This document shows, in pieces, positions 41,388 through 56,605 of a stretch of 60,581 nucleotides of DNA. Within the stretch, counting starts at the first letter, position 1, and every line of letters starts with the position of its first letter. A program made the position numbers and the translations under genes. Below the pieces are notes generated by a model. It had not been told where the DNA came from. It made no database searches and saw only the letters and a program-made list of their open reading frames with translations. The stretch is from a virus, in IMG/VR virus record IMGVR_UViG_3300008111_000077, positions 1 through 60,581 of that record; one strand, given 5' to 3'.

Positions 41388-41970
41388 CTACGATGAAATA
41401 AAAAATTTGATTAGAGCATCAAGAAATGCCTTTAATACAAATTTAAATGAAGATGCCCAACGTATTAAAAAACAGTATGGGTTATTAACAGAACAACCTG
41501 TTGAGAAGGAAGAAGAAGTTGTTAAAGATGAAAACCAATCTTTCCAAAAAGAAAAAAAGGATTCTGATGAAATCGGAACTCAAAGAGATAAACAAAAGGC
41601 TTTTAGAATATTGGCCAATATTATCGTTCTTCATGGAAAAACTAAGGCCGATCTACAATTGACTACAGATGAAAAAAACGCATTTACCTCAAGTGTTGAT
41701 GAGTTTAGAACTGATGTTGCCGAATTAGTTGAATTTGGCAGACTTAATGTTTTCCCAAGTAACGTTGAATGGTCGGGTAAAATTTTAGAAAATGATATTG
41801 AATTTTTCTATACAATAAACGAACCAAATGGTATCTACATTAATGGTCAAATGATAAAAATAGATCAAGATTATTTGGAAACAATTAATAAGTTACAAGC
41901 TTATTATGAGAAATTTAAAAATAAATGGAGTAAAATTGTCGCAACAAGACAAGAAGATGTTGAAAAATGA
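41377..41970 (+). CDS. Unknown protein with possible leader peptide
   Basis: 197 residues; ATGs at 41377 and 41380 are both possible, and it overlaps the amidase gene by 11 bases. The N-terminus (NLIRASRNAFNTNLNEDAQR, then YGLLTEQPVEKE) has an LTE tripeptide at about residue 38 and a charged linker to about 70. The rest is a compact alpha/beta-type domain. No family is recognised. It lies in the lysis operon but could be a virion protein. Confidence 0.6.
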   Translation: MMSNYDEIKNLIRASRNAFNTNLNEDAQRIKKQYGLLTEQPVEKEEEVVKDENQSFQKEKKDSDEIGTQRDKQKAFRILANIIVLHGKTKADLQLTTDEKNAFTSSVDEFRTDVAELVEFGRLNVFPSNVEWSGKILENDIEFFYTINEPNGIYINGQMIKIDQDYLETINKLQAYYEKFKNKWSKIVATRQEDVEK

Positions 41971-43756: not shown

Positions 43757-43763
43757 TATTTAT
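43757..43763 (+). promoter_or_regulatory. TATTTAT late-promoter-like motif
   Basis: TATTTAT begins 4 bases after the preceding stop and ends 14 bases before the ATG at 43778. Confidence 0.45.
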
Positions 43764-43777
43764 AAAGAAAAATAATT

Positions 43778-45337
43778 ATGAACACAAGACAATATATTAA
43801 CTCAAGATTTGAAAAAATTATATCAGAAAACATTAATGAGAAAGCAGATGCTATCTTACAAAGATTGAATTATGATGAGGAGGCACCATTCAATCCTGCT
43901 GGTAAATCATTTGACTATGTACAAGAAGGTATGAAAGAAACTTGTGAACAATGTGGGTCTGAAATGAATGAAGGTGAATGTTCAGAATGTGGTTACCAAA
44001 ATGAAGAGATTATGGAACTTGGCGGCATGGATGACGGACACCCGAAATATGGAAAGATGAATTTTTCAAAACTTTCAAGAAAAGAAATTGAAAAAATTAT
44101 GAAAGATATGGACAATATGGAAGATGACGATGAAGAAGAATTCGTAGATTATGATGATATAGATTATGGTGATATGGATGATGATGAAGAAGAATATTAT
44201 CCTGAACTGAGAATACCTCATGACATGCCATCATACAAAACTAAATATAGACATAGTGATGATGAAGACGATGAATGGGAAGAAGTAGATTTAGACACAG
44301 AAACTGATTGGGATCAATTAGAAGAAGATGAATGTACTGAGTGTGGTGATATGTATGAAATTGAACTTGATGAAAAATTATATGGAAACCAAACAAAACT
44401 TGACAAAAACAAAAACGGTAGAATAGATAGAGAGGATTTCAAAATGTTAAGAAAACAACAAGATGAGGAAGAAACTCTTTACGAAGTTGAATTTGAAAAA
44501 GATGAGTTTAAAGAAGAAAGTAAACCTGACTTTTTAGATTTAGACAAAGATGGTAATAAAAAAGAATCTATGAAGTCTGCAGCTAAAAGTAAAAAAATGA
44601 AAGGAAAGGTTACTGAGTCTTTAATTTTTACTGAAAATGAGTTGATTTCACTTATTGAAAAAACAGTAAATGAAGAAAAAAAATTCAAAATGAGCGAGCC
44701 TAAAGGTTATCAAGAGTACGAAAAAGCACACAGAAAAGATAAGAAAGAAAATGAAGATTATTTAAAGATGGTTGCTAAAAAAATGACTGATTACTTGAAA
44801 GGTATGTCTGACAAAGAGTCTAAATACGAAATGAAAGAAACACAAAAATTCCCAACTGAAAATGGTGGTAAAAGAAAAAAATATACTCCATCTGAAGCTG
44901 TTGATGAATACATTGATGCATTCTCTTATCCTGGACAAACTAATTTAGTTTATGATGAGATCAAACCTAATGATGAAAGAATTGAAAAATATCTGAAAGG
45001 TGACAGTACTACAGGAAATGCACAAGTTGATAAAGACGGAAAGGCTTTAGGTAATGTTGTACCAAGTGAAGTTGGTGAGAAATTCTTCAAAAACTATAAA
45101 GATAATCTTTATGGTCAAGAACAACAACAGGCTTCTTATAAGAGACAAACCCAACCTGTTGATCAGGCTGGTGAGGTAACTGAAAGAGGTTCTTTAAAAT
45201 CTAAGAAAGGTAAAAAAACCGCACAAAGTGTTTTGAATAAAGTTGAGGAATCTGTTAATCAAAAAGAAAAACAAAAATTAACAGAAGAATTCCAAAGAAT
45301 TCAAAATCTAATGGGCTATAACCAAAAGACTCAATAA
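43778..45337 (+). CDS. Acidic scaffold-like protein with zinc ribbon and EF-hand-like loops
   Basis: 519 residues. Leader-like N-terminus (RQYINSRFEKIISENINEKA); zinc ribbon CEQCGSEMNEGECSECG (about 56-72); a very acidic segment (about 105-185) sharing 141 identical DNA bases with the 54910 gene; CTEC (about 187); EF-hand-like KLDKNKNGRIDREDF (about 207-221) and FLDLDKDGNKKE (about 250). The C-terminal half is Lys/Glu-rich and ends KLTEEFQRIQNLMGYN. Ca-loop proteins like this are found among prohead-core components in T4-like phages, so a scaffold or internal-head role is a reasonable inference. Confidence 0.6.
   Translation: MNTRQYINSRFEKIISENINEKADAILQRLNYDEEAPFNPAGKSFDYVQEGMKETCEQCGSEMNEGECSECGYQNEEIMELGGMDDGHPKYGKMNFSKLSRKEIEKIMKDMDNMEDDDEEEFVDYDDIDYGDMDDDEEEYYPELRIPHDMPSYKTKYRHSDDEDDEWEEVDLDTETDWDQLEEDECTECGDMYEIELDEKLYGNQTKLDKNKNGRIDREDFKMLRKQQDEEETLYEVEFEKDEFKEESKPDFLDLDKDGNKKESMKSAAKSKKMKGKVTESLIFTENELISLIEKTVNEEKKFKMSEPKGYQEYEKAHRKDKKENEDYLKMVAKKMTDYLKGMSDKESKYEMKETQKFPTENGGKRKKYTPSEAVDEYIDAFSYPGQTNLVYDEIKPNDERIEKYLKGDSTTGNAQVDKDGKALGNVVPSEVGEKFFKNYKDNLYGQEQQQASYKRQTQPVDQAGEVTERGSLKSKKGKKTAQSVLNKVEESVNQKEKQKLTEEFQRIQNLMGYNQKTQ
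44125..44265 (+). repeat. Duplicated acidic coding segment, copy A (141 bp)
   Basis: Identical base for base to 54999-55151, apart from a 12-base expansion (GATGATATGGAT) in that copy. It encodes EEEFVDYDDIDYGDMDD and PELRIPHDMPSYKTKYRHSD. Identity at third codon positions points to recent duplication or gene conversion. Confidence 0.92.
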
Positions 45338-45384
45338 TTTACATTACTTAGTCTTATCCTATAATTTTTTCATAGTTTTTTACT

Positions 45385-45852
45385 ATGGATAATTTTCTAA
45401 ATTACATTACAAAAAATCTTGACCCTGAAGAGGTGGACATCTGGTTCAGGGTCAATAATATAATTCCTGAAAAAATGGAATTGTATTATGACCTGTCTTA
45501 TAGTCTATTCTTGTTAATCAAAAATACATATCTTGGAGATGAATCTGATAATGGTGAAACCACAGTAAAGATGAATGACACCGACAACAAAAAACACTTC
45601 AACTGGTGTTGGAAAAAAATCATAGATAACTTTGAAAGAGAAAGTATTTCATTTGACATGGAAGGAGATCACTACGAGTATTTTTTTACACTATTCAATG
45701 AGATATATTACAGACAAAGCAAAGAAGCAATTAGAAATTCAATAGATGTATTTTTCAATGATCTTTTCAATAGAGAAAAGGCATTCACACAAGTCGATCT
45801 TGATTTAATCTTTAATATATACAAAACACTAGATAAAAATCTTAAGGTTTAA
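45385..45852 (+). CDS. Unknown protein (155 aa)
   Basis: 155 residues, mostly helical and acidic, with many aromatic residues (HFNWCWKKIIDNFE; DHYEYFFTLFNEIYYR). No signal or membrane segment. The start follows TATAATTTTTTCATAG without the late motif. It has a 63-base gap to the H1-like gene. Not recognised. Confidence 0.55.
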   Translation: MDNFLNYITKNLDPEEVDIWFRVNNIIPEKMELYYDLSYSLFLLIKNTYLGDESDNGETTVKMNDTDNKKHFNWCWKKIIDNFERESISFDMEGDHYEYFFTLFNEIYYRQSKEAIRNSIDVFFNDLFNREKAFTQVDLDLIFNIYKTLDKNLKV

Positions 45853-45915
45853 ACTTTACAATAGTTTATTTAGAACCTAATTTATGTGTAATAAACAATA
45901 ATTTTTTAATTTCAA

Positions 45916-46086
45916 ATGGAAACTTTAGAAAAAATTAAAGAGCTTACTGAGCAACTAAGTGTTGACGTTAACAAATTCTTTAGCGGAAACAAAAGTGCTG
46001 GTACAAGAGCTAGAAAAACCTCACAAGATTTAAAGGCACTTTTACAACAATTAAGAGGTGAAATTTTAGAGGAGAAAAAAAAGTAA
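45916..46086 (+). CDS. Histone H1-like (Hc1-type) DNA-binding protein, 56 aa
   Basis: A 56-residue gene: METLEKIKELTEQLSVDVNK followed by FFSGNKSAGTRARKTSQDLK and ALLQQLRGEILEEKKK. The KFF-x-GNK-x-AGTRxRK-x-x-x-DLK pattern is the signature of the short Bacteroidetes Hc1/histone-H1-like proteins, which are basic and bind DNA. In the phage it could condense DNA or affect transcription. It ends 1 base before the next ATG. Recognised from the family pattern, not by search. Confidence 0.8.
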   Translation: METLEKIKELTEQLSVDVNKFFSGNKSAGTRARKTSQDLKALLQQLRGEILEEKKK

Positions 46087-46087
46087 T

Positions 46088-46282
46088 ATGAGGGAATTGG
46101 ATATTTTGTGTCTTTTTATTTTTGTATTATCAATAATATTTGTTACTAATCAAATATTTAAGATTTCTGCTGAAATATTAAGTGAAAATCCTCAGAAGAT
46201 AATTTATCGAGGATTTGAAAAAATATCCAATTACTTCTTTGTATCCTACTTAATAACTTATATTTTAATCAAATTTTTTTAA
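46088..46282 (+). CDS. Small two-helix membrane protein
   Basis: 64 residues: hydrophobic helix ILCLFIFVLSIIFVT at the N-terminus, a polar middle, and a second helix FFVSYLITYILIKFF at the end. The shape would fit a holin or antiholin, but it is not in the lysis cassette and the call is only by shape. It lies directly after the H1-like gene. Confidence 0.55.
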   Translation: MRELDILCLFIFVLSIIFVTNQIFKISAEILSENPQKIIYRGFEKISNYFFVSYLITYILIKFF

Positions 46283-46286
46283 AAAA

Positions 46287-46715
46287 ATGTATAACGAATT
46301 AAAAGACATATTTCAATTTTTAGTGTCAGTTAGAAAATTGAAAACATACTTGACAATAGATATTGAATTTCCTGCTAATTGGAAAATACCTAAAAAATAT
46401 GTGATAGAAGATAAGATTGTTGAGAACGAAAAATTAAATGATAATTTTAGATTTTTTTCATTTGTTACTGAATTTAACGAAGTAGAAATGAACCAAACAG
46501 TTTCTAATATAAAGAAAATAATTTCTTACAATAAAGAAATCGAAATGAAAGAGAAATTGTTGAAACAAAAAATAGACGAATTAAAACGAATTTTTGAAAA
46601 AGAAAACTTAGACAATTTACAGTCATTAAAATTTGATATTTTAGAAGAAAAATTAGATGATGGAGAAGAAATCGTTGACACGAGAGGAACAAATGGTGGA
46701 TTGGTTGAACAGTGA
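46287..46715 (+). CDS. Unknown coiled-coil protein (142 aa)
   Basis: 142 residues. A beta-type N-terminal half (YLTIDIEFPANWKIPKKYV; FRFFSFVTEFNEVEM) is followed by a Lys/Glu-rich coiled coil and an acidic Gly tail. The next gene starts inside its 3' end in another frame. Function is unknown. Confidence 0.55.
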   Translation: MYNELKDIFQFLVSVRKLKTYLTIDIEFPANWKIPKKYVIEDKIVENEKLNDNFRFFSFVTEFNEVEMNQTVSNIKKIISYNKEIEMKEKLLKQKIDELKRIFEKENLDNLQSLKFDILEEKLDDGEEIVDTRGTNGGLVEQ

Positions 46716-46860
46716 AATTGAAAAAGATAAAATCGAATTAGATAAAGAAAAAAAAGATCTAATAAATTCATTAAAATCAATAAAAAAAGAAGAAGTTTTA
46801 CCAAAACAAGAAAAACTTAGTTTATGGAAGAAAATAAAGAAAGTGTTATTGGGGTCTTAG
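46693..46860 (+). CDS. Small charged protein with cationic C-terminal helix
   Basis: 55 residues from the ATG at 46693 (MVDWLNSEIEKDKIELDKEK), preferred over an ATG at 46657 that would give a larger overlap and an unconvincing N-terminus. It ends LSLWKKIKKVLLGS, a cationic amphipathic tail. The next gene overlaps it by 37 bases in another frame and ends with a similar SWIRKVLSSF tail. Confidence 0.5.
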   Translation: MVDWLNSEIEKDKIELDKEKKDLINSLKSIKKEEVLPKQEKLSLWKKIKKVLLGS

Positions 46861-47141
46861 AAAAACTGGCATTAGTCACTGATGGATTGCAAAATATTTT
46901 TCCTGATGGTAAAGTCATTTGTGTTTATGAATTAAATGACGAGGACTTCAAACAAGTACAAGAAAATTTTCGAAAAATAGATCACTCACACAAAAGATTT
47001 TCTATTGATATTTCAGGAATTGAACACGTATTTATTCACGAAAATTTTGAAAGATCTGAAATTAAAGAAGAAGTCAAAATAGAAGAACCAAAAAAACAAA
47101 GTTGGATTAGAAAAGTACTATCTAGTTTTAAAAGTAGTTGA
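46824..47141 (+). CDS. Unknown protein with cationic tail (105 aa)
   Basis: 105 residues. An alpha/beta N-terminal region (ENKESVIGVLEKLALVTDGL; DGKVICVYELND) is followed by a charged linker and the KKQSWIRKVLSSFKSS tail. It belongs to a chain of three overlapping frames (46287, 46693, 46824). A terminator follows at 47152. Confidence 0.55.
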   Translation: MEENKESVIGVLEKLALVTDGLQNIFPDGKVICVYELNDEDFKQVQENFRKIDHSHKRFSIDISGIEHVFIHENFERSEIKEEVKIEEPKKQSWIRKVLSSFKSS

Positions 47142-47756
47142 TCTCCTATATAGGGATTGTTTACTAATCCCTTTTTCAGATAAAATATCATACAAGTATT
47201 TTTTTTGTGCTTTGGAGGATTCAGAAACTATAATACAATCAATTCTTTGTTGAGAAATTAAAAATTCATTAAGGTTATCTAAAAATCTTTTTGATTCGTT
47301 TTCATCCTTCAATGAAAACAATTTAACATCATCATCATTTTGTAAAACAACCTTATTATTCAATCTTGAAATTAACTTTATTGAATTTTTTGGTAAGTAG
47401 TTTTTGATAAAAACATCCATAGTTATTTTTGTCTTTTTATCAACGTCGTAAATCTTTTCAGGTATTTTATATTTTACAACTTTAAGTATCTTATAGTCAG
47501 GATCATCCAAATCTACCAAAACCTGCCTACCCATCTCATCCCTAACAAACATCTTATCAAAGTTATTATCCTTCTTTTCAAGAATAGACAATTCATAATC
47601 ACAAGGTTTTGCATTTTCAACCTTAGTTTCAAAAATGACAGATTGATTTTCCTCAATTAATTTATCGAAGAAAAGATTAGCCCTTTCTTTAGTTTTAAAT
47701 TTGTTGATTATTTTTTTTCTTTCTTTATTTTTAAAGACAACAACTAAGTAGTTCAT
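47118..47756 (-). CDS. Unknown minus-strand protein (212 aa)
   Basis: 212 residues, begins MNYLVVVFKNKERKKIINKF; soluble, charged, with alternating beta and helix segments. It has 27 bases of antisense overlap between its 3' end and the end of the 46824 gene. It is divergent from DnaJ with a 29-base gap, so the two share a promoter region (AATAATAATATTTTC). No family is recognised. Confidence 0.6.
   Translation of the reverse strand: MNYLVVVFKNKERKKIINKFKTKERANLFFDKLIEENQSVIFETKVENAKPCDYELSILEKKDNNFDKMFVRDEMGRQVLVDLDDPDYKILKVVKYKIPEKIYDVDKKTKITMDVFIKNYLPKNSIKLISRLNNKVVLQNDDDVKLFSLKDENESKRFLDNLNEFLISQQRIDCIIVSESSKAQKKYLYDILSEKGISKQSLYRRSTTFKTR
47152..47176 (+). terminator. Intrinsic terminator inside an antisense gene
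   Basis: AGGGATT/AATCCCT stem with a seven-base loop and TTTT on the + strand. It ends the 45385-47141 group. It lies within the 3' coding end of the minus-strand gene at 47118-47756. Confidence 0.75.
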
Positions 47757-47785
47757 AAATTAATAATAATATTTTCTTTTTATAA

Positions 47786-48703
47786 ATGAATAATGAAAAT
47801 TTTTACCAAGTTTTGGGGGTCCAAGAAAATGCGACTCAAGATGAAATAAAGAAGGCATACCGTAATTTGGCGAAAGAGAATCACCCTGATACAGGTGGTG
47901 ATGAAGATAAGTTTAAAAAGATTTCGGTTGCTTACGATGTTTTAAGTGATGAATCTAAAAGAAGAGAATACGATACCAAAAGAAAAAATCCATTTGGTAA
48001 TTATGATAACTATGAAGATATGTTCTCTAATATGTTTGGTGGTAGAAAACCAAGACAAACCGTACACACTACAAACATTACAGTGAATGTTGGTGTTTTA
48101 GATTCATATAGGGCAAATAAACATTCTCTTTCATATAGAAGACAAACAATGTGCGAACCATGTTCAGGCACTGGCGGCGATAAAAAAACTTGTGGGACTT
48201 GTAACGGTTCAGGTGTTGTAGTTAGACAAGTTGGATCAGGATTTTTTGTTCAAGTAGTACAGATGGCTTGTGATGGATGTGGAGGAATTGGAAGTATAAC
48301 CATTAACCCATGTTTTATGTGTAGTGGAAGTGGATCAAAACCTGAAATAAAAAACTTGGACATATCTCTACCTCATGGAATAGATAATGGTCAGTTTTTA
48401 AGATTACAAGGAATGGGAGATTTTAAAAATGGAAACTATGGAGATCTTGTTGTTAGAGTTGATTTGAAACCACAGGATGGATTTGATAAGGTGGGTAATC
48501 ATTTGGTATATAATGTTTTTATGACACTTGATGAACTTAAACAAGGAAGTTTTAATGTCCCACATCCCGATGGTATGATGAATGTTAAGATGCCCAAAAA
48601 AGTTGATACATCACTACCATTGAGAGTCAAAGCAAAAGGATTTAGATTAGATACTGTTGGTGATTTGATGATCAACCAATATGTGAGATTTGATAGGGAT
48701 TAA
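47786..48703 (+). CDS. dnaJ: DnaJ-type co-chaperone
   Basis: 305 residues, a complete class A J-protein. J domain at 3-68 ([20 protein letters not shown], then the HPD of NHPDTGGD that triggers DnaK ATP hydrolysis). The Gly/Phe linker is very short. Zinc region at about 121-190 has four CxxC-type repeats ([33 protein letters not shown]). The C-terminal substrate-binding domains follow. Phage J-proteins help hijack host DnaK for capsid folding or replication. No chaperone partner is seen in the window. Confidence 0.92.
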
Positions 48704-48861
48704 AATAAAGATATAACATCTTTGACAAACGATACGATACCGTATATACCAAAAAAGAAAAATATCCCACCACCAATTAGAACAAATCTTTGAGTGTTCT
48801 GTACTTGTTTACTTTCTTCACAAGTTCTACATTTTACTTCTGTTGCTTTTTTCTCTTCCAT
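48700..48861 (-). CDS. 53-residue membrane protein with CxxC
   Basis: Minus-strand frame from ATG 48861 to stop 48700: [20 protein letters not shown], then a Gly/Phe-rich membrane helix ([19 protein letters not shown]) and a short tail. The CxxC at about 11-14 could bind zinc. It overlaps the DnaJ stop by 4 bases tail to tail. It fills an otherwise empty 160-base gap and has a sensible composition, so I judge it real. Confidence 0.6.
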
Positions 48862-48868
48862 AAATTAA

Positions 48869-49375
48869 TTATAACACAATGGTTTTAATATGAAAATAGT
48901 TTTCCAACATTACTTTCTTTTGTTGGGGTTTGTTTTTGTTGAAGAATCTAAGATAATTACCATCAAATGAATAAGTACTTGTTGGAATGACATAAACCCT
49001 GTCAGTAGACTTTTCAATTATAAATTCTAAATAATCAAAAACTTCTTCATCTTCATTGTCCTCATCTCTATAAACAAACTTTAACCTATCACCCAATGAA
49101 TGATCAGCAAATGATCTAATAATTTTTGGATATTTTAATTCTATAACTTGTGATAAAATGTCGTTAGGGACCGCAACTCTTTCGTGTGTTGAAGTATCAG
49201 AGTCAATAGAATCTAAAATTGATTGTCTTATGAAATCAAAATCTTTATTACCCTTTCTATCTATTGATTGATGACTTGAAGCATAGAATGAATTACCTCT
49301 TGGACTGATATATAATAAATCTTCCCTGTCGGCTTGCTCGGCAATAATTGATCTTAGAGTTTGAAGCATTTTCAT
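48869..49375 (-). CDS. Unknown late protein with leader-like N-terminus (168 aa)
   Basis: The frame opens upstream to 49582, but the ATG at 49375 is preferred: it gives MKMLQTLRSIIAEQADREDL, does not run into the methyltransferase gene, and has TATTTAT 6 bases upstream. The start resembles T4 internal head proteins (short basic helix, then an IAE tripeptide at about residue 11-13). The body is alpha/beta with an acidic DEDNEDEEVFDYLEF segment. Function is unknown; packaging in the capsid is a hypothesis. Confidence 0.6.
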   Translation of the reverse strand: MKMLQTLRSIIAEQADREDLLYISPRGNSFYASSHQSIDRKGNKDFDFIRQSILDSIDSDTSTHERVAVPNDILSQVIELKYPKIIRSFADHSLGDRLKFVYRDEDNEDEEVFDYLEFIIEKSTDRVYVIPTSTYSFDGNYLRFFNKNKPQQKKVMLENYFHIKTIVL

Positions 49376-49381
49376 ACTAGA

Positions 49382-49388
49382 ATAAATA
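49382..49388 (-). promoter_or_regulatory. TATTTAT late-promoter-like motif on the minus strand
   Basis: On the minus strand TATTTAT ends 6 bases before the ATG at 49375; this placement decides that start over the longer frame. Confidence 0.5.
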
Positions 49389-49408
49389 TTTGAAAAATAA
49401 AAATACAA

Positions 49409-49439
49409 TTGATTAGTCATCTTGTTTTTACTATCTTTA
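49409..49439 (+). promoter_or_regulatory. Bacteroidetes-type promoter TTG-N20-TATCTTTA
   Basis: TTG at 49409, a 20-base spacer, and TATCTTTA at 49432-49439, a one-mismatch TAnnTTTG box. The ATG of the methyltransferase is 4 bases downstream, the same distance as at the SAP gene (54594), so the mRNA may be leaderless. Confidence 0.55.
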
Positions 49440-49443
49440 TTAC

Positions 49444-50283
49444 ATGTTAAGTTATATCGGAGGTAAGAGTAAAATTGGTAAATGGATTGTTCCATTCTAC
49501 GACAAAAACATGGAGGTCTATTTAGAGACTTTCGGAGGAATGTTTTGGTGTTTCTATAATATGGATCTAAAACAATTCCCAAATCTAAATAAAGTTGTTT
49601 ATAACGACTTTAACCCACTAAATTATAATCTATTCAAATGCGTCCAAAACCCAAACGAGTTGTTAAGGGCGATAAATTCAATTGATTGTCAAAAACAAGG
49701 CGTGGATCTTACACCTGAAATATACAAACAACAATTTATCAGCTTTCAGGCTGAAGTTTTTAATGAAGGTTTCAGCGTAGAACCTGGCGATTATGAAGTT
49801 GCCGCTAAGTATGTCTATATTCTAACACAAGTTTTTAGTGGATCAAAACCTGAGACATCTAACTTCATTGACCTTAAAGGGAAATACAAATCAAAATATC
49901 TTACATTTAGAGATAAGTTATCTAAACCTGATTGGTTGGATCACTTTTTAAAAATTACTGATGTTGAAAACATGGATTTCGCAGATGTAATCAATAAGTA
50001 TGACTCACCATCAACTTACATTTATTTGGACCCACCGTATTGGAAAACGGAAAATTACTACTCCAACCACGACTTTGATCGTCAAGATCATGAACGTTTG
50101 GCTAATGTTTTACACGGGGTTCAAGGTAAGTTTTCTTTATCTTACTATGACTTTGAATTACTTCACGAATGGTTTCCCGAAGACCAATACACTTGGGTTA
50201 AAAAAGAGTTTGCTAAAGCTGCGGCTGCTAAGAAAGGTGAGAAACAAAATATGGGGGAAGAATTATTGATAATGAATTATTAA
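49444..50283 (+). CDS. Dam-type DNA adenine N6-methyltransferase
   Basis: 279 residues of the D12 class. The N-terminal SAM-binding motif is YIGGKSKIGKWI, followed by LETFGGMFWCF; the catalytic motif is IYLDPPYWKTENYY (about 196-209). The start MLSYIGGKSK matches the canonical family start. It would methylate adenine in a short target, protecting phage DNA from host restriction or marking it. No cognate nuclease gene lies nearby, so it is an orphan. Expressed from a host-type promoter. Confidence 0.92.
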   Translation: MLSYIGGKSKIGKWIVPFYDKNMEVYLETFGGMFWCFYNMDLKQFPNLNKVVYNDFNPLNYNLFKCVQNPNELLRAINSIDCQKQGVDLTPEIYKQQFISFQAEVFNEGFSVEPGDYEVAAKYVYILTQVFSGSKPETSNFIDLKGKYKSKYLTFRDKLSKPDWLDHFLKITDVENMDFADVINKYDSPSTYIYLDPPYWKTENYYSNHDFDRQDHERLANVLHGVQGKFSLSYYDFELLHEWFPEDQYTWVKKEFAKAAAAKKGEKQNMGEELLIMNY

Positions 50284-50301
50284 TTTTTTACTGTTTACAA
50301 A

Positions 50302-50308
50302 TATTTAT
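50302..50308 (+). promoter_or_regulatory. TATTTAT late-promoter-like motif
   Basis: TATTTAT ends 15 bases before the ATG at 50324; an A-rich spacer follows, as at 14118 and 54889. Confidence 0.45.
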
Positions 50309-50323
50309 TAAATAAAAAATATT

Positions 50324-51706
50324 ATGTCACTTAGGTTCACCAATCTATTAAGAGATCTTATTGTTGAAAGTTCAAGATTTCAAGTATTATTCGATAAGTT
50401 CGTAAAACCAAAAGAAAGAGGTCAAAGAGGTATTATGCCTTTTGAAACTTTATTTGCACTTATCGCCGCTGACCCAACTACAAAGGTCCCTGACGGTATG
50501 GATATCGATAATGTTAAACCTGAACAGATGGAGAAGGTTAAAATTGGGAAATACGCTCAATGGTTACTAAAAAACTTTGTCACTCCTAAATTACCTGCTG
50601 ATCACCCTTTAATGGTTTCAGATCCACAATCAGGTCAATATAAAGCGGCTTTAAAGGCATTCCAAGATCTTTTTATGGAAGACTTATATAAGGTTACAAC
50701 AAACCTCCAAAAGTTTGAAAGATTTAAAAATAGATTACCTCAAGAGTATAGAGATATTAACAAACTAACTCCTGAGACTTTATTTGATCAAGTTAAAGAT
50801 TTCAGTTTAGAAAAAACCAAAGCGACTGCCGCTGAGAAAAAAGAAGCATCAACAACATATGCTCACCCTGGTGCTGACATCGTTTATAGAGGTCAAGATT
50901 GGACAGTTGCTAAAATATCAGACAAAGGTCCATTAGGTAAAGAAGCCGCATGTTTCTATGGTGGATCTCATAATGAAGGTAGAAGAGGAGAAACTACTTG
51001 GTGTACATCTTCACCTGGACTTTCTTGGTTTGATCGTTATATTGGTAAAGGACCATTGTATGTTGTAATTCCAAACAAACCAACATCATTTAAATCTTAC
51101 GGTAAAGAAGTTGGAGATGTTTCAGGTTTACCGGCAAACAGATACCAATTCCACTTCCCTGATAATCAGTATATGGATGCGGATGACAGACCAATCAATT
51201 TGATTGAATTCTTAAACACAAATGAAGAAGGACTAAAACAATTCTTCAAACCTGAGTTCATGAAGTCATTAGCCGGAGATAAAGGTGAAAAAGTTGTGAT
51301 TGATTATCCAGGTGATTCGGCATCAAAATTCATTGCACTTTATGGTTTTGACGAATTCTTTGCCACTCTTCCTCAGTCATTGAAAAGACTTACATTCAAA
51401 AACACATCAAGAGACAAAATTTCATTGAATATTCCAAACGACATTGGAAGGTTCAAACAGTTGAACGCAATCAACTTTGTTGGATGTGTTGCAACTATAC
51501 CTGAAGCAATTTGTCAATTACAAAATTTACAATATTTATCTTTAGTTAATAACCCAGACCTTCAAAAATTACCTGAATGTGTTGGGGATATGCAAAACCT
51601 TATGGTACTAAACCTTGGAGGATCCGATCCTAAGAAAGTTCTACCTGAATCTGTATTCAGAAGAGCTGAAACAGACGAAGACTTCAACTTATTTACACAC
51701 TCTTAA
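50324..51706 (+). CDS. Leader-bearing protein with WCT motif and leucine-rich repeats (460 aa)
   Basis: Three regions: a leader-like N-terminus (SLRFTNLLRDLIVESSRF, with an IVE tripeptide); a middle domain (about 180-300) containing TTWCTSSPGLSWF and GKGPLYVVIPN; and a C-terminal set of leucine-rich repeats (about 340-450: LPQSLKRLTFKN, IPNDIGRFKQLNAINF, IPEAICQLQNLQYLSL, LPECVGDMQNLMVLNL). The WCT-x-n-GxLYVxI pattern recurs in phage proteins of unknown activity; I cannot assign an enzyme. LRRs usually bind proteins. It could be an injected effector. Confidence 0.65.
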   Translation: MSLRFTNLLRDLIVESSRFQVLFDKFVKPKERGQRGIMPFETLFALIAADPTTKVPDGMDIDNVKPEQMEKVKIGKYAQWLLKNFVTPKLPADHPLMVSDPQSGQYKAALKAFQDLFMEDLYKVTTNLQKFERFKNRLPQEYRDINKLTPETLFDQVKDFSLEKTKATAAEKKEASTTYAHPGADIVYRGQDWTVAKISDKGPLGKEAACFYGGSHNEGRRGETTWCTSSPGLSWFDRYIGKGPLYVVIPNKPTSFKSYGKEVGDVSGLPANRYQFHFPDNQYMDADDRPINLIEFLNTNEEGLKQFFKPEFMKSLAGDKGEKVVIDYPGDSASKFIALYGFDEFFATLPQSLKRLTFKNTSRDKISLNIPNDIGRFKQLNAINFVGCVATIPEAICQLQNLQYLSLVNNPDLQKLPECVGDMQNLMVLNLGGSDPKKVLPESVFRRAETDEDFNLFTHS

Positions 51707-51708
51707 AA

Positions 51709-52398
51709 ATGAATAGAAGATTAATAATTAATGAAGAAGAAAAAAGAAGAATTTTAAATCTTCATGAAAGTAGAAGATCTAAAGAATTAGGTTTTTTATT
51801 TGAAGACGATAATGCAAACAATGAAGTACTGCTTCAAGGTACGGATAAGGATTATGATTATAAAAAAGTGGGAGATAAATATTATTTCAAGTTAAAGGAT
51901 AACCCTACAAGTGTCGCGGCTAAAGGATACAAAACACAAGGAAAATTTGTAGATTGGACAGAAGCGACTAATCAAAAAGCTATAGATAAAATTTCACAAC
52001 TACCTACATTATCAACAGTAGCACAATTTCAGGGACCTGGTGAAGTTGACGGAAGTGATGAGACATTTGACGCACCACAAACCGCATCTACAACGGCGCA
52101 AACACCTACAGTGGCGTCAACAACATCTACAACCGCAGCAACACCCACAAACGCAACTACAACTACAAACGCAACAACACCAGCACCTACGTCAAAAAAC
52201 CCTGATGTTTTAGCAGACTTAAAAACTGCATCACAAATCAGACAAGAATTTAGACAAGGTAATAGAGATAAAAACAAAGCGATGAGACAATACAATCAAA
52301 TGGTTAATAAATATAACAAATTAAAAAGTAAAATGAGTCCACAAGATAATTCGGCTTATCTACAAGCAATTGGCCAATTGAAACAACAAATAGGATAA
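51709..52398 (+). CDS. Leader-bearing Thr/Ala-linker protein (229 aa)
   Basis: 229 residues. N-terminal leader MNRRLIINEEEKRRILNLHE has an INE tripeptide and a basic helix. A small domain follows (DYDYKKVGDKYYFKLKDNP, about 45-65), then a Ser/Thr/Ala-rich linker (about 120-165: TTAQTPTVASTTSTTAATPT) and a basic helical tail (QIRQEFRQGNRDKNKAMRQY). It starts 2 bases after the LRR gene. A linker between a small domain and a basic end suggests a DNA- or capsid-associated protein. Confidence 0.55.
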   Translation: MNRRLIINEEEKRRILNLHESRRSKELGFLFEDDNANNEVLLQGTDKDYDYKKVGDKYYFKLKDNPTSVAAKGYKTQGKFVDWTEATNQKAIDKISQLPTLSTVAQFQGPGEVDGSDETFDAPQTASTTAQTPTVASTTSTTAATPTNATTTTNATTPAPTSKNPDVLADLKTASQIRQEFRQGNRDKNKAMRQYNQMVNKYNKLKSKMSPQDNSAYLQAIGQLKQQIG

Positions 52399-52418
52399 TA
52401 AATAAATTACATTCTTTT

Positions 52419-52452
52419 AAAACCCCCCCTTCTTTTGATCGGGGGTTTTTTA
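52419..52452 (+). terminator. Intrinsic terminator
   Basis: AAAACCCCC/GGGGGTTTT stem around an eleven- to twelve-base loop, followed by TTTATT. It ends the 50324-52398 unit. Confidence 0.85.
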
Positions 52453-52462
52453 TTTAACAAAG

Positions 52463-52469
52463 TATTTAT
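52463..52469 (+). promoter_or_regulatory. TATTTAT late-promoter-like motif before the MKIII cluster
   Basis: TATTTAT lies between a terminator and the ATG at 52475, ending 5 bases before it, so its use as a new transcript start is likely. Confidence 0.5.
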
Positions 52470-52474
52470 CTTAT

Positions 52475-52849
52475 ATGAAAATCATCATAACAGAAGAACA
52501 GTATAATCTAATCAACGAAACCTATAGAAGAGATCGTTTTGATGCTGAGTACGCTGATGAATATCCAAAGTATAAGAAGTTGTTTTTAAAGACAATATCT
52601 AAAGATGTCAAAGGTTGGGGTGAATGGCCAGGATCAATTTATCTGATGACTGAAAACGGAGACCCTTTATTTGTATATAGAATACCATCAAAAACCGTAT
52701 ATTATGATTATTCAATAGATAAAGAGATGGAAGAATATATTCCTTATCACATTGTTTCGAGACACTTGAAAAACGCAGTTTACGATTACTTCAAAGGACT
52801 TTTTCCTGATGTTGAAATAAAAGAGGTAAGTGGGGCTAATATTGTATAG
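52475..52849 (+). CDS. MKIIITE-leader protein 1 (124 aa)
   Basis: First of four consecutive genes that begin with almost the same peptide, here MKIIITEEQYNLINETYRRD. The mature part ends with FVYRIPSKTVYYDYSIDKEM and a YDYFKGLFPDVEIKEV tail, a pattern shared with protein 3 of the cluster. No membrane or signal segment. I infer a small internal or capsid-targeted protein; the function of the body is unknown. Confidence 0.65.
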   Translation: MKIIITEEQYNLINETYRRDRFDAEYADEYPKYKKLFLKTISKDVKGWGEWPGSIYLMTENGDPLFVYRIPSKTVYYDYSIDKEMEEYIPYHIVSRHLKNAVYDYFKGLFPDVEIKEVSGANIV

Positions 52850-52851
52850 TT

Positions 52852-53409
52852 ATGAAAATAATAATATCTAATAATCAATATAGTCTTTTGAAGGAAGTGC
52901 ATGTTGCTATTAAAAACATTGAGGGTCTTAAAAAGTATTGGAGAAACCAACAAAAAAAAGGTCAACAAATTAGATTTAATAAAGAAGATTTAGATTTTTG
53001 GGGTATTACAACTAGACAGGAAAAATATTATGCTCAAACAGCATTTCAAGAATTAGTTGGAGATGAGGTTTTTACTGAAAAAGTTATTAAAAAGTTAATC
53101 GGAAAAACATTTTCAACGAAAGACTTTGATGATAGAATCACTGGTGGATATGATTTCGAGTGGGTGATTGATAATATGGAATATAGAGATTATGATTTTT
53201 ATTTATATGGAAAAACATTACCGGGAGGAACTGTTACTCTTATGGATGGTAGACACATATCTTTAAGTGAAGGAATAAATCATGAAGATTTAGGTTGGGA
53301 AATACAAGAAGAAATTAAAGATGTTGTCCAAGACTGTATGGATGAAATAATTTTACCTGTCACAGGATATGAAGTGATAGTACCATATTTAATTATATCT
53401 GAAGAATGA
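52852..53409 (+). CDS. MKIII-leader protein 2 (185 aa)
   Basis: 185 residues starting MKIIISNNQYSLLKEVHVAI, the most divergent leader of the four (ISN in place of ITE). The body holds NKEDLDFWGITTRQEKYY and an acidic C-terminal domain (DLGWEIQEEIKDVVQDCMDE). It starts 2 bases after the previous stop and overlaps the next gene by ATGA. Unknown function. Confidence 0.65.
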   Translation: MKIIISNNQYSLLKEVHVAIKNIEGLKKYWRNQQKKGQQIRFNKEDLDFWGITTRQEKYYAQTAFQELVGDEVFTEKVIKKLIGKTFSTKDFDDRITGGYDFEWVIDNMEYRDYDFYLYGKTLPGGTVTLMDGRHISLSEGINHEDLGWEIQEEIKDVVQDCMDEIILPVTGYEVIVPYLIISEE

Positions 53410-53732
53410 AAATAATAATTACAGAATCACAGAAAGAAAAACTAATGAATGATTTTATGAAATCACTCGTAGATGATACCTTAGATGAAAACAAACCTTC
53501 TTATGTTGATTATTATATTGTTATTTGGGATAAAACTGCTGTTTGGAACATTGATAACGAGCCGTTTATTGAATATGATAAATCTGATGGTAGATTGTGG
53601 ATATCAAAAAAATATTTAAACAACTTAGAATCTTGGTTCCCAATCAAAAAAGAAAAAGTGTTAGATATGATTAAAAACTCTTTTGAAAATAAATTTAATG
53701 TTGATGTAAAATATATCAAAGCGGAGTCATGA
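53406..53732 (+). CDS. MKIIITE-leader protein 3 (108 aa)
   Basis: 108 residues, MKIIITESQKEKLMNDFMKS. The first 21 bases (ATG to ACAGAA) are identical to those of protein 4. The body runs WDKTAVWNIDNEPFIEYDKS to FENKFNVDVKYIKAES, an arrangement (short strand pair, aromatic segment, helix, VDVKxI end) paralogous to protein 1. ATGA overlaps on both sides. Unknown function. Confidence 0.65.
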   Translation: MKIIITESQKEKLMNDFMKSLVDDTLDENKPSYVDYYIVIWDKTAVWNIDNEPFIEYDKSDGRLWISKKYLNNLESWFPIKKEKVLDMIKNSFENKFNVDVKYIKAES

Positions 53733-54316
53733 AAATAATAATTACAGAAAAACAATATAATAAGTTAACTGAAGATAAACTTCAGAAACTTTGTTATACA
53801 GTATGGAACCAACAAAAAAAGAGAGGTGAAGAACCTTATATTGATGATATAATATACGACATTACAGATATTAGAAAAAACACAAATGAAGACTTTCAAA
53901 TCATTAGACCCATTTGGTATAGATACAACGGTGGATTTAATAACTTATTTGAAAAACTTAAAAATGAAATTGACGAAAAAATATTTGACCTTACAAGTGA
54001 TTGGGGTAATCTTGATACAAGAGTAGAAGTTATTGAAGTAAGTCAGTTTGGTAGATTAGGTGAAGATTTTGGAGTAGATATATTTGTAAATGTAGATCCA
54101 AATGGAACCATGGATTTCCAAATGTATGAAGAAGGAACCGATAACGAAATTCAAGTTAACGATACGATTGAGGCGGCTTATTTTGAAGCTCAATCCAATT
54201 ATGAAGGAAGTGATCTTCTTGGTTATTTAAGAGGGGAAGTTTATGACCTTTTTTATAAAAAGTTAGAAAAATACGGAATTCCAATTGACGTGGATGTTGA
54301 TCTAAAAGAATTTTAA
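53729..54316 (+). CDS. MKIIITE-leader protein 4 (195 aa)
   Basis: 195 residues, MKIIITEKQYNKLTEDKLQK. The body contains VWNQQKKRGEEPYIDDIIYD, similar to the KKYWRNQQKKGQQI region of protein 2, and a C-terminal acidic alpha/beta part (EDFGVDIFVNVDPNG; GIPIDVDVDLKEF). Ends 5 bases before the next TATTTAT motif. Unknown function. Confidence 0.65.
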   Translation: MKIIITEKQYNKLTEDKLQKLCYTVWNQQKKRGEEPYIDDIIYDITDIRKNTNEDFQIIRPIWYRYNGGFNNLFEKLKNEIDEKIFDLTSDWGNLDTRVEVIEVSQFGRLGEDFGVDIFVNVDPNGTMDFQMYEEGTDNEIQVNDTIEAAYFEAQSNYEGSDLLGYLRGEVYDLFYKKLEKYGIPIDVDVDLKEF

Positions 54317-54321
54317 ATATA

Positions 54322-54328
54322 TATTTAT
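54322..54328 (+). promoter_or_regulatory. TATTTAT late-promoter-like motif
   Basis: TATTTAT ends 7 bases before the ATG at 54336, again near-leaderless spacing. Confidence 0.45.
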
Positions 54329-54335
54329 TATCACT

Positions 54336-54572
54336 ATGGGACCAATCGAAAAAAAAATCTTAGAATTATCTAAAACAGAAGGACTTTCTGAAGAAACAAA
54401 ACTTGCTTTGACTATAATTAAAAATCAAGTTAAAGAAGATGAAAAACGAATTGTTAATGAAGCATATCAAAAAGGTTACCACGATAAAGAAATGAGCCGT
54501 AGACCCACTTGGAACTACTTTGAAAGTAAGTACAAATCATTCTTTACAAATTTCAGAGTTGGTGAATTGTAA
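54336..54572 (+). CDS. Small helical protein (78 aa)
   Basis: 78 residues, MGPIEKKILELSKTEGLSEE then KEDEKRIVNEAYQKGYHDKE, a charged helical chain with an aromatic end (YFESKYKSFFTNF). Not recognised. The -33 of the next gene's promoter lies inside its 3' end. Confidence 0.55.
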   Translation: MGPIEKKILELSKTEGLSEETKLALTIIKNQVKEDEKRIVNEAYQKGYHDKEMSRRPTWNYFESKYKSFFTNFRVGEL

Positions 54573-54589
54573 AATTTTTCGTATCTTTG
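54559..54589 (+). promoter_or_regulatory. Bacteroidetes-type promoter TTG-N20-TATCTTTG
   Basis: TTG at 54559-54561, 20-base spacer, TATCTTTG at 54582-54589: an exact match to the Bacteroidetes TTG/TAnnTTTG pattern. The ATG is 4 bases downstream, predicting a leaderless transcript. Confidence 0.7.
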
Positions 54590-54593
54590 TGGT

Positions 54594-54878
54594 ATGGAAG
54601 ACTTAAACAAACTCGAATTACCCGAAATCAAAACTCTTTGTAAACAATACGGAATCGGGACCGTAGGTGATAAAAAAACCCTAATTAAAAAACTCAAATA
54701 TTTCTTGGACCCTATTGAGGATGTGTTAAATACACACCCTGGTAGAAAACTACCAAAAGATAAAAAAATTGTTGGTGCTAAAGTAACCAAACAAGAAGAA
54801 ATTAATAATGTGTTAAAAAAGAAGGGTCAATTTTTATATTATTCTTTGGGTTATCATTATTATATGGTGACAGAATAA
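54594..54878 (+). CDS. SAP-domain protein (94 aa)
   Basis: 94 residues. An N-terminal SAP motif (LNKLELPEIKTLCKQYGIG, then GDKKTLIKKLKYFL; about 4-41) is the helix-extended loop-helix that binds AT-rich DNA in many nucleic-acid enzymes and regulators. The rest (about 42-94) is a small domain with basic helix KKGQFLYYSLGYHY. It may be a DNA-binding regulator. Driven by a host-type promoter on its own start codon. Confidence 0.7.
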   Translation: MEDLNKLELPEIKTLCKQYGIGTVGDKKTLIKKLKYFLDPIEDVLNTHPGRKLPKDKKIVGAKVTKQEEINNVLKKKGQFLYYSLGYHYYMVTE

Positions 54879-54888
54879 AAAAACTAGA

Positions 54889-54895
54889 TATTTAT
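54889..54895 (+). promoter_or_regulatory. TATTTAT late-promoter-like motif
   Basis: TATTTAT ends 14 bases before the ATG at 54910 and starts 10 bases after the SAP gene stop. Confidence 0.45.
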
Positions 54896-54909
54896 TAAAT
54901 AAAATTGGT

Positions 54910-55368
54910 ATGAAAAAACAAATACTTGAAGAGCTTAATGATATTAAGTATCTTTTTAATTACAATAGAGGTAAAATTATTTCAGAACAGGAACAATTTG
55001 ACGATGAAGAAGAATTCGTAGATTATGATGATATAGATTATGGTGATATGGATGATGATATGGATGATGATGAAGAAGAATATTATCCTGAACTGAGAAT
55101 ACCTCATGACATGCCATCATACAAAACTAAATATAGACATAGTGATGATGATATGGAATTGGACGAAGAAATGGATCTTCCTGTAATGTTACCAGGTACA
55201 AAAGAAAAAGAAAGAACTAAGGTAACACCTGGAACTAAACCGAGAACAAAACCTAATACTCCATATAGCCCAAAACCAGGACCAAAACCGGATCCTAAGG
55301 CTAGAAATAGAAAAGATGAGATACCTGATTGGTTAACCTTTGATGAACTTGGAATTGATTTCGAATAA
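54910..55368 (+). CDS. Acidic leader-bearing protein with duplicated segment (152 aa)
   Basis: 152 residues: leader-like MKKQILEELNDIKYLFNYNR with ILE and ISE tripeptides, an acidic segment (about 30-80) shared with the 43778 protein, and a Lys/Pro/Thr-rich C-terminal half (KVTPGTKPRTKPNTPYSPKP). It ends with WLTFDELGIDFE. Two late genes 11 kb apart share identical DNA over the acidic part, so one probably donated it. A linker-like, charge-alternating protein; function is unknown. Confidence 0.6.
   Translation: MKKQILEELNDIKYLFNYNRGKIISEQEQFDDEEEFVDYDDIDYGDMDDDMDDDEEEYYPELRIPHDMPSYKTKYRHSDDDMELDEEMDLPVMLPGTKEKERTKVTPGTKPRTKPNTPYSPKPGPKPDPKARNRKDEIPDWLTFDELGIDFE
54999..55151 (+). repeat. Duplicated acidic coding segment, copy B (153 bp)
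   Basis: The same sequence as 44125-44265, with an extra GATGATATGGAT, a local expansion of a DDMD unit. All other bases match. Confidence 0.92.
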
Positions 55369-55369
55369 T

Positions 55370-56605
55370 ATGAAAGATTTAAGAAAAAAATTATACACTG
55401 AAGGTTTGCCAAAATCTGAATTTGTTAGACTTATGGAAGCCCCAATTGACTACGAAGGTCCTGAAAGAATGGCTGGAGATGTTGAGGGAAAAATCACCGG
55501 TAAAAAAACCCCCTACCATAATTTTCCTGCTATCCCTAATATGGATAAAGACTTTGTTGAATTAATATCTTCCAAGAGATTCAAAGACTCAGTTGACAAA
55601 GTTAGAATGGCTATGGGTGATACAAGAATTATACAAGGTCAAAATGCTTTAATGCAGTTAATGGGAACTGTTGGTCAAGCGATGCAAAGACTTGTTATGA
55701 TTCAGTCACAAAACAAAAAACAACTTGAAGATTTGGCTATTGAACTTGTAAAAAAAGAAATGGGTATTCCTGAAGGGGCAATGCAGTTCAAGGCTGAACT
55801 AATGACACAACCTATGGGTGCCGCAGAAGGGATGAAAGATGAAGCCGAAATGCCAAGTGAAGAAGAAATTGAAGAGTTTATGGGTGACGTTGAAAACTTC
55901 AACTTAGAAAGAGCTAAAAGAAGATTTATTAACTCATTAATTCAAGGAGCGGCTTTCAAAGGAGGTCACATGTATAATCTTGTAAGAAATGAAATCAATG
56001 ATATCAACCCACAATTAATGAACCTTTATGCTGTTACCCAATCTTTGATGGAACATGCTTATTGGATCTTTCCTGATATGGAAGGAATGGCAGGTGGTGG
56101 CGGTGGTCAAATGGGTCAGTCAGAATATGATGATGAGACAGATCCACCAACAGTAAAAGCTAGAGCTGTTACATTCCCACTTCTTGTACACGAGTTAGTT
56201 AAAGGTGTTTATGAGGTATTTGGAACTCATGGTTTACCTGATGACCCAAAACAAAGAGAAATGGTATTAAATGCTGAAGATTCACTTCCTGCTGAGATTT
56301 GGGACTCTCGTTTAGGACCAATTTTTTGGGAGAAGTTCGTTTCAACTTACCCTATGGAATTGTTCGATGATGATATGAAACATATCCAACATTATTTATT
56401 CATGCGTTTTTCAGCTTTAAACGCAGAAGAATTTATGAGTTTAGCTAAAAAGATCCTAAGTGGGGATCCAAAAGGACAACAAATAATTCAAAGAATGGTT
56501 GATGATATCGTTAAAGATTTAAAAGACAGAGAATATAAAGATGCCATGGGTGATGATGATGACGAAGACTACGGCGATGTTGATCTAAGTGATTTGGGAC
56601 TTTAA
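55370..56605 (+). CDS. Probable structural protein (411 aa)
   Basis: The frame extends to an ATG at 55340, but ATG 55370 is preferred: it follows the previous stop directly (TAATATG) and gives MKDLRKKLYTEGLPKSEFVR, a leader-like start with an LME at about residue 23-25. The body is helix-rich with Met-rich stretches (MGTVGQAMQRLVM), a Gly-rich loop (GMAGGGGGQMGQ), and an acidic DDDDEDYGDVDLSDLGL end. Family is unknown; virion or scaffold role is inferred from leader and operon. Confidence 0.6.
   Translation: MKDLRKKLYTEGLPKSEFVRLMEAPIDYEGPERMAGDVEGKITGKKTPYHNFPAIPNMDKDFVELISSKRFKDSVDKVRMAMGDTRIIQGQNALMQLMGTVGQAMQRLVMIQSQNKKQLEDLAIELVKKEMGIPEGAMQFKAELMTQPMGAAEGMKDEAEMPSEEEIEEFMGDVENFNLERAKRRFINSLIQGAAFKGGHMYNLVRNEINDINPQLMNLYAVTQSLMEHAYWIFPDMEGMAGGGGGQMGQSEYDDETDPPTVKARAVTFPLLVHELVKGVYEVFGTHGLPDDPKQREMVLNAEDSLPAEIWDSRLGPIFWEKFVSTYPMELFDDDMKHIQHYLFMRFSALNAEEFMSLAKKILSGDPKGQQIIQRMVDDIVKDLKDREYKDAMGDDDDEDYGDVDLSDLGL

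Follow-up and report, generated by a model that had tools for sequence, protein, structure and literature searches.

Predicted capsid-targeting leaders on a large set of proteins in T4-type huge phages

Introduction

Eleven genes of the IMG/VR virus record IMGVR_UViG_3300008111_000077, a stretch of 60,581 bases that we call the window, encode proteins that begin with a short segment carrying a tripeptide of the (I/L)xE kind. What are such leaders for? A preliminary description had named ten of them, likened them to the capsid-targeting sequences of phage T4 and proposed a set of proteins packaged in the head and injected with the DNA. The available part of one account states that the T4 internal proteins reach the prohead core by means of a capsid-targeting sequence that the gp21 protease removes, and that Alt is cut at ITE-6 and LTE-619 (PMC5694885). 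On the sequence comparisons described here, it is very likely that the leaders of the window and its relatives are T4-style capsid-targeting propeptides that would be removed by a prohead protease. The leader and cut-site system proposed earlier is strongly supported by an N-terminal excess of the motif, by the modularity of the leaders, by a boundary at xE, by exchanges of one leader for another, by an S77 protease and by the sequence LINE/A in gp23 (a slash between residues marks a known or predicted cut); the earlier reading as a whole, with its packaged and injected set, is supported in part.

The record carries baseplate genes of T4 type (gp25 and gp6), together with a sigma factor and ribonucleotide reductase. 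It is a piece of a T4-type huge phage genome, and IMG/VR contigs of up to 292 kb match its proteins. In one relative, G001 (272,576 bases), the genes for an S77 protease, gp23, a T4-type portal and terminase stand together in one block, which also holds Ribosomal_S21 on the opposite strand. A block arrangement of this kind is described, in the part of the paper available, for bS21 huge phages whose predicted hosts are freshwater Bacteroidetes (PMC9723584). The leader-bearing huge phages probably infect Bacteroidetes as well.

Results and discussion

Excess of the motif at N-termini

The motif [LIVMF][LIV]xE was counted where it ended at residues 7-36 of open reading frames (ORFs) of at least 110 aa with first-ATG starts, and 30-residue segments from residue 45 on of the same proteins served as the control. 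In the window the motif is present in 16/48 N-termini compared with 49/503 interior segments (p = 2.8e-5). The excess is marked in G001 (80/237 against 257/2140, p = 3.6e-16) and in a second relative, G002 (82/249 against 266/2276, p = 1.6e-16); the interior background is about 12% in these two genomes and about 10% in the window. Motif-bearing N-termini number 39/129 in G003, 69/264 in G020 and 35/142 in the isolate immuto, with 25/127 in S-PM2 (p = 7e-4), 29/160 in T4 (p = 0.015) and 33/190 in Mel-JY01, which bears S77 (p = 0.036). Phages without an S77 match display no N-terminal excess: phiKZ (first 160 kb) gives 18/144, crAss001 10/79 and phi14:2 9/75.

First-ATG starts were used because the alternative, starts based on Shine-Dalgarno sequences, truncates true N-termini. 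With the latter the effects are mostly smaller: 12/46 in the window (p = 2.5e-3), 69/232 in G001, 62/244 in G002, 28/122 in G003, 50/252 in G020, 33/137 in immuto and 30/158 in T4. When the rule was applied to T4 with ORFs of at least 60 aa and residues 6-36, 44 ORFs were listed, amongst them what we take to be the internal proteins, Alt, gp22, gp68 and gp24. The rule is valid for groups of genes, not for single genes.

Recurring leaders and a sharp boundary

Eight recurring leaders were modelled as hidden Markov models (HMMs). Type T1 reads MKKVIRLTESDLxRIVKRVIxE, with I or V at position 4 (for example MKKIIRLTESDLTRIVKRVINE), and type T2 reads MKIIITExQYxxLLxE. Type T3 is (F/L)IISEEEKRRILNLH, usually followed by LxE, and type T4t is MNxLLNEIxxIRxMMxLLxE. 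The remaining types are T5 (MKELIRHILKE), T5b (MNLQENIRRVLRE), T6 (RFKQLLESKLGNVKPLIxE) and T7 (EELNDIKYLFNYNRGxIISE). Requiring at least 7 bits and a leader start within 15 residues, these models found 42 tagged proteins in G001 and 59 in G002, together with 23 in G020, 16 in G003, five in G005 and six in the window; none was found in eight other phages, immuto and T4 included. G020 lay outside the HMM seeds, yet was picked for holding a T1 match. Over all 14 genomes the models gave 18 further hits inside proteins and eight in reversed-protein decoys. The typed genes cluster, with 21, 33 and eight adjacent pairs in G001, G002 and G020, respectively, against 5.9, 10.7 and 1.5 after shuffling. 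Immuto (NC_055915) has repeated N-termini of its own, MENFDLKKFLVENKLT-like in four genes (1803, 103806, 117631 and 118632) and MKKQILSEQFxRMQxLAGIITE in two (25061 and 111675).

A DNA pattern that covers residues 1-12 of T1 matched at least 120 stretches of viral contigs and a single stretch of the genome_contigs collection (257 billion bases); the T2 pattern also matched at least 120 stretches. A codon pattern of the whole T1 leader, too strict for the purpose, had no match in the loci searched, and tblastn of short consensus peptides against the phage collection gave none either, the queries perhaps being too short for that search. Amongst the matches listed, 129 distinct T1 proteins (at least 70 aa, 109 loci) fall into 104 body families, as defined by BLASTP of the bodies at 1e-3, and 98 T2 proteins fall into 33. 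The same leader thus stands on otherwise unrelated proteins.

These sequences were selected without regard to residues 13-22 of T1. Across the 104 representatives Glu22 is present in 94 and Ile, Leu or Val occupies residue 20 (P3) in 102, and from residue 23 the entropy climbs to the level of the bodies. Conservation therefore stops directly after xE, and the boundary is (I/L/V)-x-E, the T4 prohead cut motif. The T2 columns past residue 10 are less sharp, with Leu or Ile at residue 13 in 30/33 and Glu15 in only 13/33.

The 411-aa conserved protein encoded at 55370-56605 (+) has a boundary of the same kind. Its gene starts with the ATG at 55370, the propeptide MKDLRKKLYTEGLPKSEFVRLME (55370-55438) precedes APIDYEGPERM, and the first residue invariant in the family is Glu23. 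Amongst 37 distinct homologues P1 is Glu in 37/37 and P3 is Leu, Ile or Val in 37/37, whereas P2 and the part upstream vary. Since these homologues were fetched with the word APIDYEG, only P1, P3 and the upstream part count as a test. The predicted structure of this protein is poor [predicted local distance difference test (pLDDT) score of 52.5], and the phage collection offers no more than weak matches to it, from two uncultured phages with sizes of 0.63-0.64 Mb.

Leaders are also exchanged at the same bond. One body carries a T1 leader in ...VINE/NQEEVDRILDKIS and a T2 leader in ...FLIE/NQEVVDRILDKIS; a DHH-like protein starts with T5 in G001 and with T2 in G002, each time reading ...LLNE/SGIR; and the body of the minus-strand gene that starts at 49375 (26-35% identity) occurs with four different starts. 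In one clustering more than one typed leader was found in eight of 213 body families, 58 of which have at least two members, some of the links being chained or weak. From these exchanges we argue that the leaders are functionally equivalent.

Prohead protease and gp23

The preliminary description held that a genome without a prohead protease would speak against its reading. The window, as a fragment, gives no match to S77 (PF03420) in a profile search; the relatives that carry head genes do encode S77. Of 18 leader-bearing contigs longer than 200 kb, drawn from the matches listed (80 of the at least 120 stretches per pattern), 15 hold S77 above the cut-off and the same 15 hold gp23. The other three (G026, G028 and G029) hold neither and therefore look like fragments that lack the head block. 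G002, which is outside this count, has both genes. The protease of G001 is of the S77 type (8.5e-23), with a weak S80 match (0.0034) below the cut-off. Six of nine named phages have S77, including RM378, which did not enter the motif counts, and LR745206, which was not chosen for leaders, has a weak S77-like match below the cut-off. The isolate immuto (Flavobacterium phage vB_FspM_immuto, host Flavobacterium sp. LMO8) carries both S77 and gp23. The 268,739-base contig G024 carries S77 and gp23 twice each, with about 200 kb between the copies, reflecting either two head modules or a chimeric assembly.

T4 gp23 is cut at FLTE/A. In the alignment the propeptides of gp23 from G001, G002, G005 and G020 end near that position in LINE/A, where these proteins would be cut.

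Tagged bodies

Pfam gives no match for the majority of tagged bodies. The 137 T1 and T2 representatives match 38 Pfam families at E of at most 0.01, and of the best 25 of these 22 occur in a single member; 98 tagged proteins of G001 and G002 match 16 families at 0.001. A sigma-70-like factor lies behind a T2 leader at L389:4246-4809 (+), with region 2 at 2.6e-11 and region 4 at 3.3e-17, and is a candidate virion-delivered sigma factor; the product of L298:6783-7346 (-) is, by eye, near-identical to it. Lysozymes are tagged at L272 and L340, and L388 encodes a tagged protein that matches SET and, below the threshold, DHH. A pterin-4a-carbinolamine dehydratase at G002:239298-239705 has a T5b-type leader, and alignments with its solved relatives begin at residues 11-24, on either side of the MNE at residue 18. 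Two proteins of Mel-JY01 that resemble ADP-ribosyltransferases had no Pfam match at 0.01.

Leader genes of the window

All ten leaders named earlier, LLTEQ at 41377 included, are in frame, and an eleventh, overlooked before, is MKIIISNNQYSLLKE at 52852. The likely cut of 52475 moves from the ITE named earlier to the next LIxE, and that of 54910 moves to KIISE. Orthologues were compared with up to 14 sequences displayed per gene, and types were assigned by HMM. The gene at 41377-41970 (+) has a leader of 38-39 aa (41377-41493) with a predicted cut at YGLLTE/Q, and most of the orthologues that extend that far retain YG(L/I)(L/I)xE or YGILSE.

The gene at 43778-45337 (+) encodes a 519-aa protein with the leader MNTRQYINSRFEKIISE/N (43778-43828). 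All ten homologues read keep KI(I/L)xE at the start; the protein itself had no match in the phage collection. It is acidic and has an internal T1-like leader copy, SLIFTENELISLIEKTVNE/E, at 44618-44674 (+), where homologues have ILFTETDLIDFIEKIVNE and ILFTETDLIDLIEKLVKE; it is possibly a core or multi-site protein. On the minus strand, the gene at 48869-49375 carries MKMLQTLRSIIAE/Q (49337-49375), and the different starts of its homologues end in YLFE, YLLE or VLSE.

The leader protein with leucine-rich repeats noted earlier is encoded at 50324-51706 (+), with the leader MSLRFTNLLRDLIVE/S (50324-50368). Ile13 and Glu15 are invariant in its family (n = 22 sequences). The repeats are C-terminal in the predicted structure (mean pLDDT of 79; residues 1-13 below 50), and the model matches solved structures through them alone. 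Adjoining them is a conserved central domain (residues ~180-320, ACFYGG...WCTSSPG) without a Pfam or solved-structure match.

Downstream is a run of typed leaders. The gene at 51709-52398 (+) has a T3 leader, MNRRLIINEEEKRRILNLHESRRSKELGFLFE/D (51709-51804), the homologues of which finish in FLFE, LINE or YLLE. Next come four genes of type T2. That at 52475-52849 (+) has the leader MKIIITEEQYNLINE/T (52475-52519), and its orthologues (MKIIVTQHQLDLINE, MKLIITKDQLSLINE and MKFLITQEQFDLLNE) vary in the first tripeptide (ITE to VTQ, ITK or ITQ) and keep L(I/L)xE or LIxE at residues 13-15. As the second site is kept and the first is free, the cut is likely to follow residue 15, not MKIIITE; this variation rules out MKIIITE as a general cut site. 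The gene at 52852-53409 (+), with the leader MKIIISNNQYSLLKE/V (52852-52896), has ISN or ISD at the first site in itself and its orthologues and a conserved (L/I)KE at the second. At 53406-53732 (+) the leader is MKIIITE/S (53406-53426), ITE being its sole site. At 53729-54316 (+) it is MKIIITEKQYNKLTE/D (53729-53773); most orthologues keep both sites, one having KLTK at the second, and ITE at residue 7 is therefore an equal candidate for the cut.

An acidic protein encoded at 54910-55368 (+) has a T7 leader, MKKQILEELNDIKYLFNYNRGKIISE/Q (54910-54987). Its homologues keep (K/R)(I/V)ISE/Q, and the better site is KIISE/Q at residue 26, not ILEE. An acidic segment, DEEEFVDYDD...KYRHSDD, is common to this gene (55003-55149) and the tagged gene at 43778 (44129-44263); the two copies are identical in DNA save for a 12-nt insertion, as a result of either recent gene conversion or an assembly effect.

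The TATTTAT motif

The preliminary description had placed a late motif, TATTTAT, before these genes or their operons. This holds loosely: TATTTAT is present just upstream of five of them, at 43757-43763 (+; 14 nt 5' of 43778), 49382-49388 (-; 6 nt 5' of the 49375 start), 50302-50308 (+; 15 nt 5' of 50324), 52463-52469 (+; 5 nt 5' of 52475) and 54889-54895 (+; 14 nt 5' of 54910), whereas its total in the window is at the chance level (43 against 39 +/- 6). Amongst 7-mers upstream of genes, TATTTAT ranks first in both G001 (63, with 7.7 expected) and G002 (59, with 6.8 expected); this ranking used Shine-Dalgarno-based starts, which made the motif look absent before the leader genes of the window (0/13). 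In the pool of the window, G001, G002, G003, G020 and immuto, 140/349 genes with an N-terminal [LIVMF][LIV]xE have TATTTAT no more than 40 nt from the start, compared with 189/796 others (p = 4e-8). No difference was seen in G003 (10/42 against 21/96) or in G005 (6/21 against 24/100), which is outside the pool. In G001, G002, G003 and G020 it precedes 84/140 typed-leader genes against 229/968 others, and in these genomes its distances from the ATG form two classes, of roughly 4-5 nt and roughly 13-17 nt. Of these, the near class (within 8 nt) accounts for 43/140 typed-leader genes against 81/968 others. Like the preliminary description, we read TATTTAT as a putative late promoter; if it does act as a promoter, mRNAs with little or no leader would be expected from the near class.

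Interpretation and alternatives

Our model is that a tagged protein would be made late in infection and docked into the prohead core by its leader of 7-39 aa, often a short hydrophobic start followed by an amphipathic helix. A gp21-type S77 protease would cut after the terminal (I/L/V)-x-E, the leader would be lost and the mature body would stay in the head with the DNA. Many bodies would then be injected and be active in the host at once, with those of 43778, 54910 and 55370 perhaps serving as core or head parts. The comparisons show the leaders, their modular use, the boundary at xE and the presence of the protease and of a matching gp23 propeptide end; docking, cutting and packaging are inferred from them, and injection and the roles of the bodies are more speculative. 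We are less sure of delivery to the host for most bodies than of the removal of leaders, and some bodies are probably parts of the core or head. Overall, the analysis suggests a large toolkit of head-loaded proteins delivered with the DNA.

Several points weigh against this interpretation. The N-terminal excess is weak or absent in G005 (19/115, p = 0.08) and in HTVC008M (23/144, p = 0.14), which bears S77. Most of the 44 ORFs listed by the rule in T4 are presumably not head proteins, and as a single-gene rule it is weak. The HMM seeds were hand-picked, mostly from G001, G002 and the window; Glu22 is missing from 10/104 T1 leaders, some of which have a longer helix with Glu further on, and a second (I/L)xE is missing from 53406 and from certain other T2 proteins. 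Neither S77 nor gp23 is present in the window or in several relatives (amongst 12 related records searched, S77 was found in five and gp23 in six), which we read as the mark of fragments. Nor is the co-occurrence with S77, necessary as it is, independent evidence, because S77 and gp23 travel together in a T4-type head. No virion proteomics was found for any of these phages, in a literature search aimed at the isolate immuto alone. Finally, the leader sequences are unrelated to those of T4, in which the HMMs for T1-T7 have no hits; the leaders would therefore work like the T4 leader, with common descent unsupported.

The alternative that survives best accepts the cut by the prohead protease and holds that the tagged proteins are core or scaffold components, digested or retained in the head and not delivered. 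T4 offers a precedent in its core proteins gp22, gp67 and gp68, which, in the part of the account available, are chopped to short fragments (PMC5694885). The acidic 43778 protein with its internal T1-like site, the 54910 protein with the same acidic module and the conserved 55370 protein, the role of which is unassigned, would suit such a function, and these three, instead of being injected effectors, may belong to the head or core. For the set as a whole we regard the alternative as unlikely, as the 42 and 59 typed proteins of two genomes have mostly unrelated bodies and include enzymes and regulators (sigma factor, lysozymes, DHH-SET protein and pterin dehydratase), which are unlike scaffold.

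A short helical tag on unrelated proteins would look much the same if it were an uncleaved address for another compartment, such as a phage nucleus, a membrane site or a host complex. Conservation stops right after (I/L/V)xE, as it does at the gp23 and 55370 boundaries, differing leaders are exchanged at the xE bond and phiKZ, crAss001 and phi14:2 have no excess, all of which makes an address tag very improbable. We give less credence still to the idea that what the genes share at their 5' ends is a DNA cassette for recombination or regulation, consisting of a promoter and first codons, with no function in the protein. The frequency of the near-class TATTTAT before typed-leader genes is in its favour, as are leader codons that are somewhat more uniform than those of the body at 12/12 T1 positions tested (Arg6 is AGA in 94/104). 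Synonymous codons nevertheless vary at most conserved residues, with four in use at each of Thr8 and Leu7, and on this variation a purely DNA-level cassette is rejected; moreover, leader types of different DNA have the terminal xE in common, and orthologues that differ in other residues still keep xE. Coincidence in acidic, hydrophobic N-termini, the least credible explanation, could appeal to the commonness of the motif in interior segments, but is refuted for the group as a whole by the p values for G001 and G002, by the three control phages and by one leader on 104 body families, even if individual genes may be false positives.

If capsid targeting is the correct explanation, a simple sequence rule would list candidate injected proteins of a large uncultured group of huge phages, turning anonymous genes into testable first-strike factors against Bacteroidetes hosts and providing new packaging tags. 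Mechanisms of this kind are known already; what is new is the sequences of the leaders and the scale. No publication matched four leader words or described such leaders in a literature search that fell short of most subscription journals.

Comparison with known systems

The G001 block, with S77, gp23, portal and terminase and with Ribosomal_S21 on the opposite strand, resembles that of the bS21 huge phages (Chen et al., 2022; PMC9723584), the available part of that account making no mention of N-terminal leaders or packaged proteins. The ejection proteins of phiKZ and SPN3US provide a second parallel: giant phages load many proteins into the head and trim their N-termini after xE, as is predicted here. 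In the accessible part of the relevant paper, several of the SPN3US propeptides are longer than 100 residues, the cut motif being AxE (SxE in phiKZ) and the protease S80 (PMC5694885). The leaders here are unlike those of S80 systems in their length of 7-39 aa, in a P3 that is mostly Ile, Leu or Val and in the S77 protease of G001, and the phages described here differ from phiKZ, the first 160 kb of which has no N-terminal (I/L)xE excess.

The closest likeness is to T4 IPI-III and Alt, in which a short N-terminal propeptide ends in (L/I)xE and one leader serves unrelated bodies; the relatives of the window also encode an S77 prohead protease and T4-type gp20, gp23 and terminase. Unlike T4, they have several leader types, some of them longer (up to 39 aa). 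According to the available parts of two papers, the internal proteins of T-even phages have the leader alone in common and are injected, IP1-3 blocking restriction enzymes (PMC12373910; PMC3012670), and the present set is likewise without homology except for its leaders. It differs from that anti-restriction repertoire in including a sigma factor, lysozymes, a DHH-SET protein and a pterin dehydratase, and in size, with tens of tagged proteins per genome compared with three internal proteins in T4 and at least ten in related phages, as far as the available text goes (PMC12373910). We see about an even chance that this is the largest predicted leader-tagged, virion-delivered set known to us, with some 40-60 or more proteins per genome behind a few interchangeable leaders; a sigma factor that some phages include in it would redirect the host RNA polymerase as the DNA enters.

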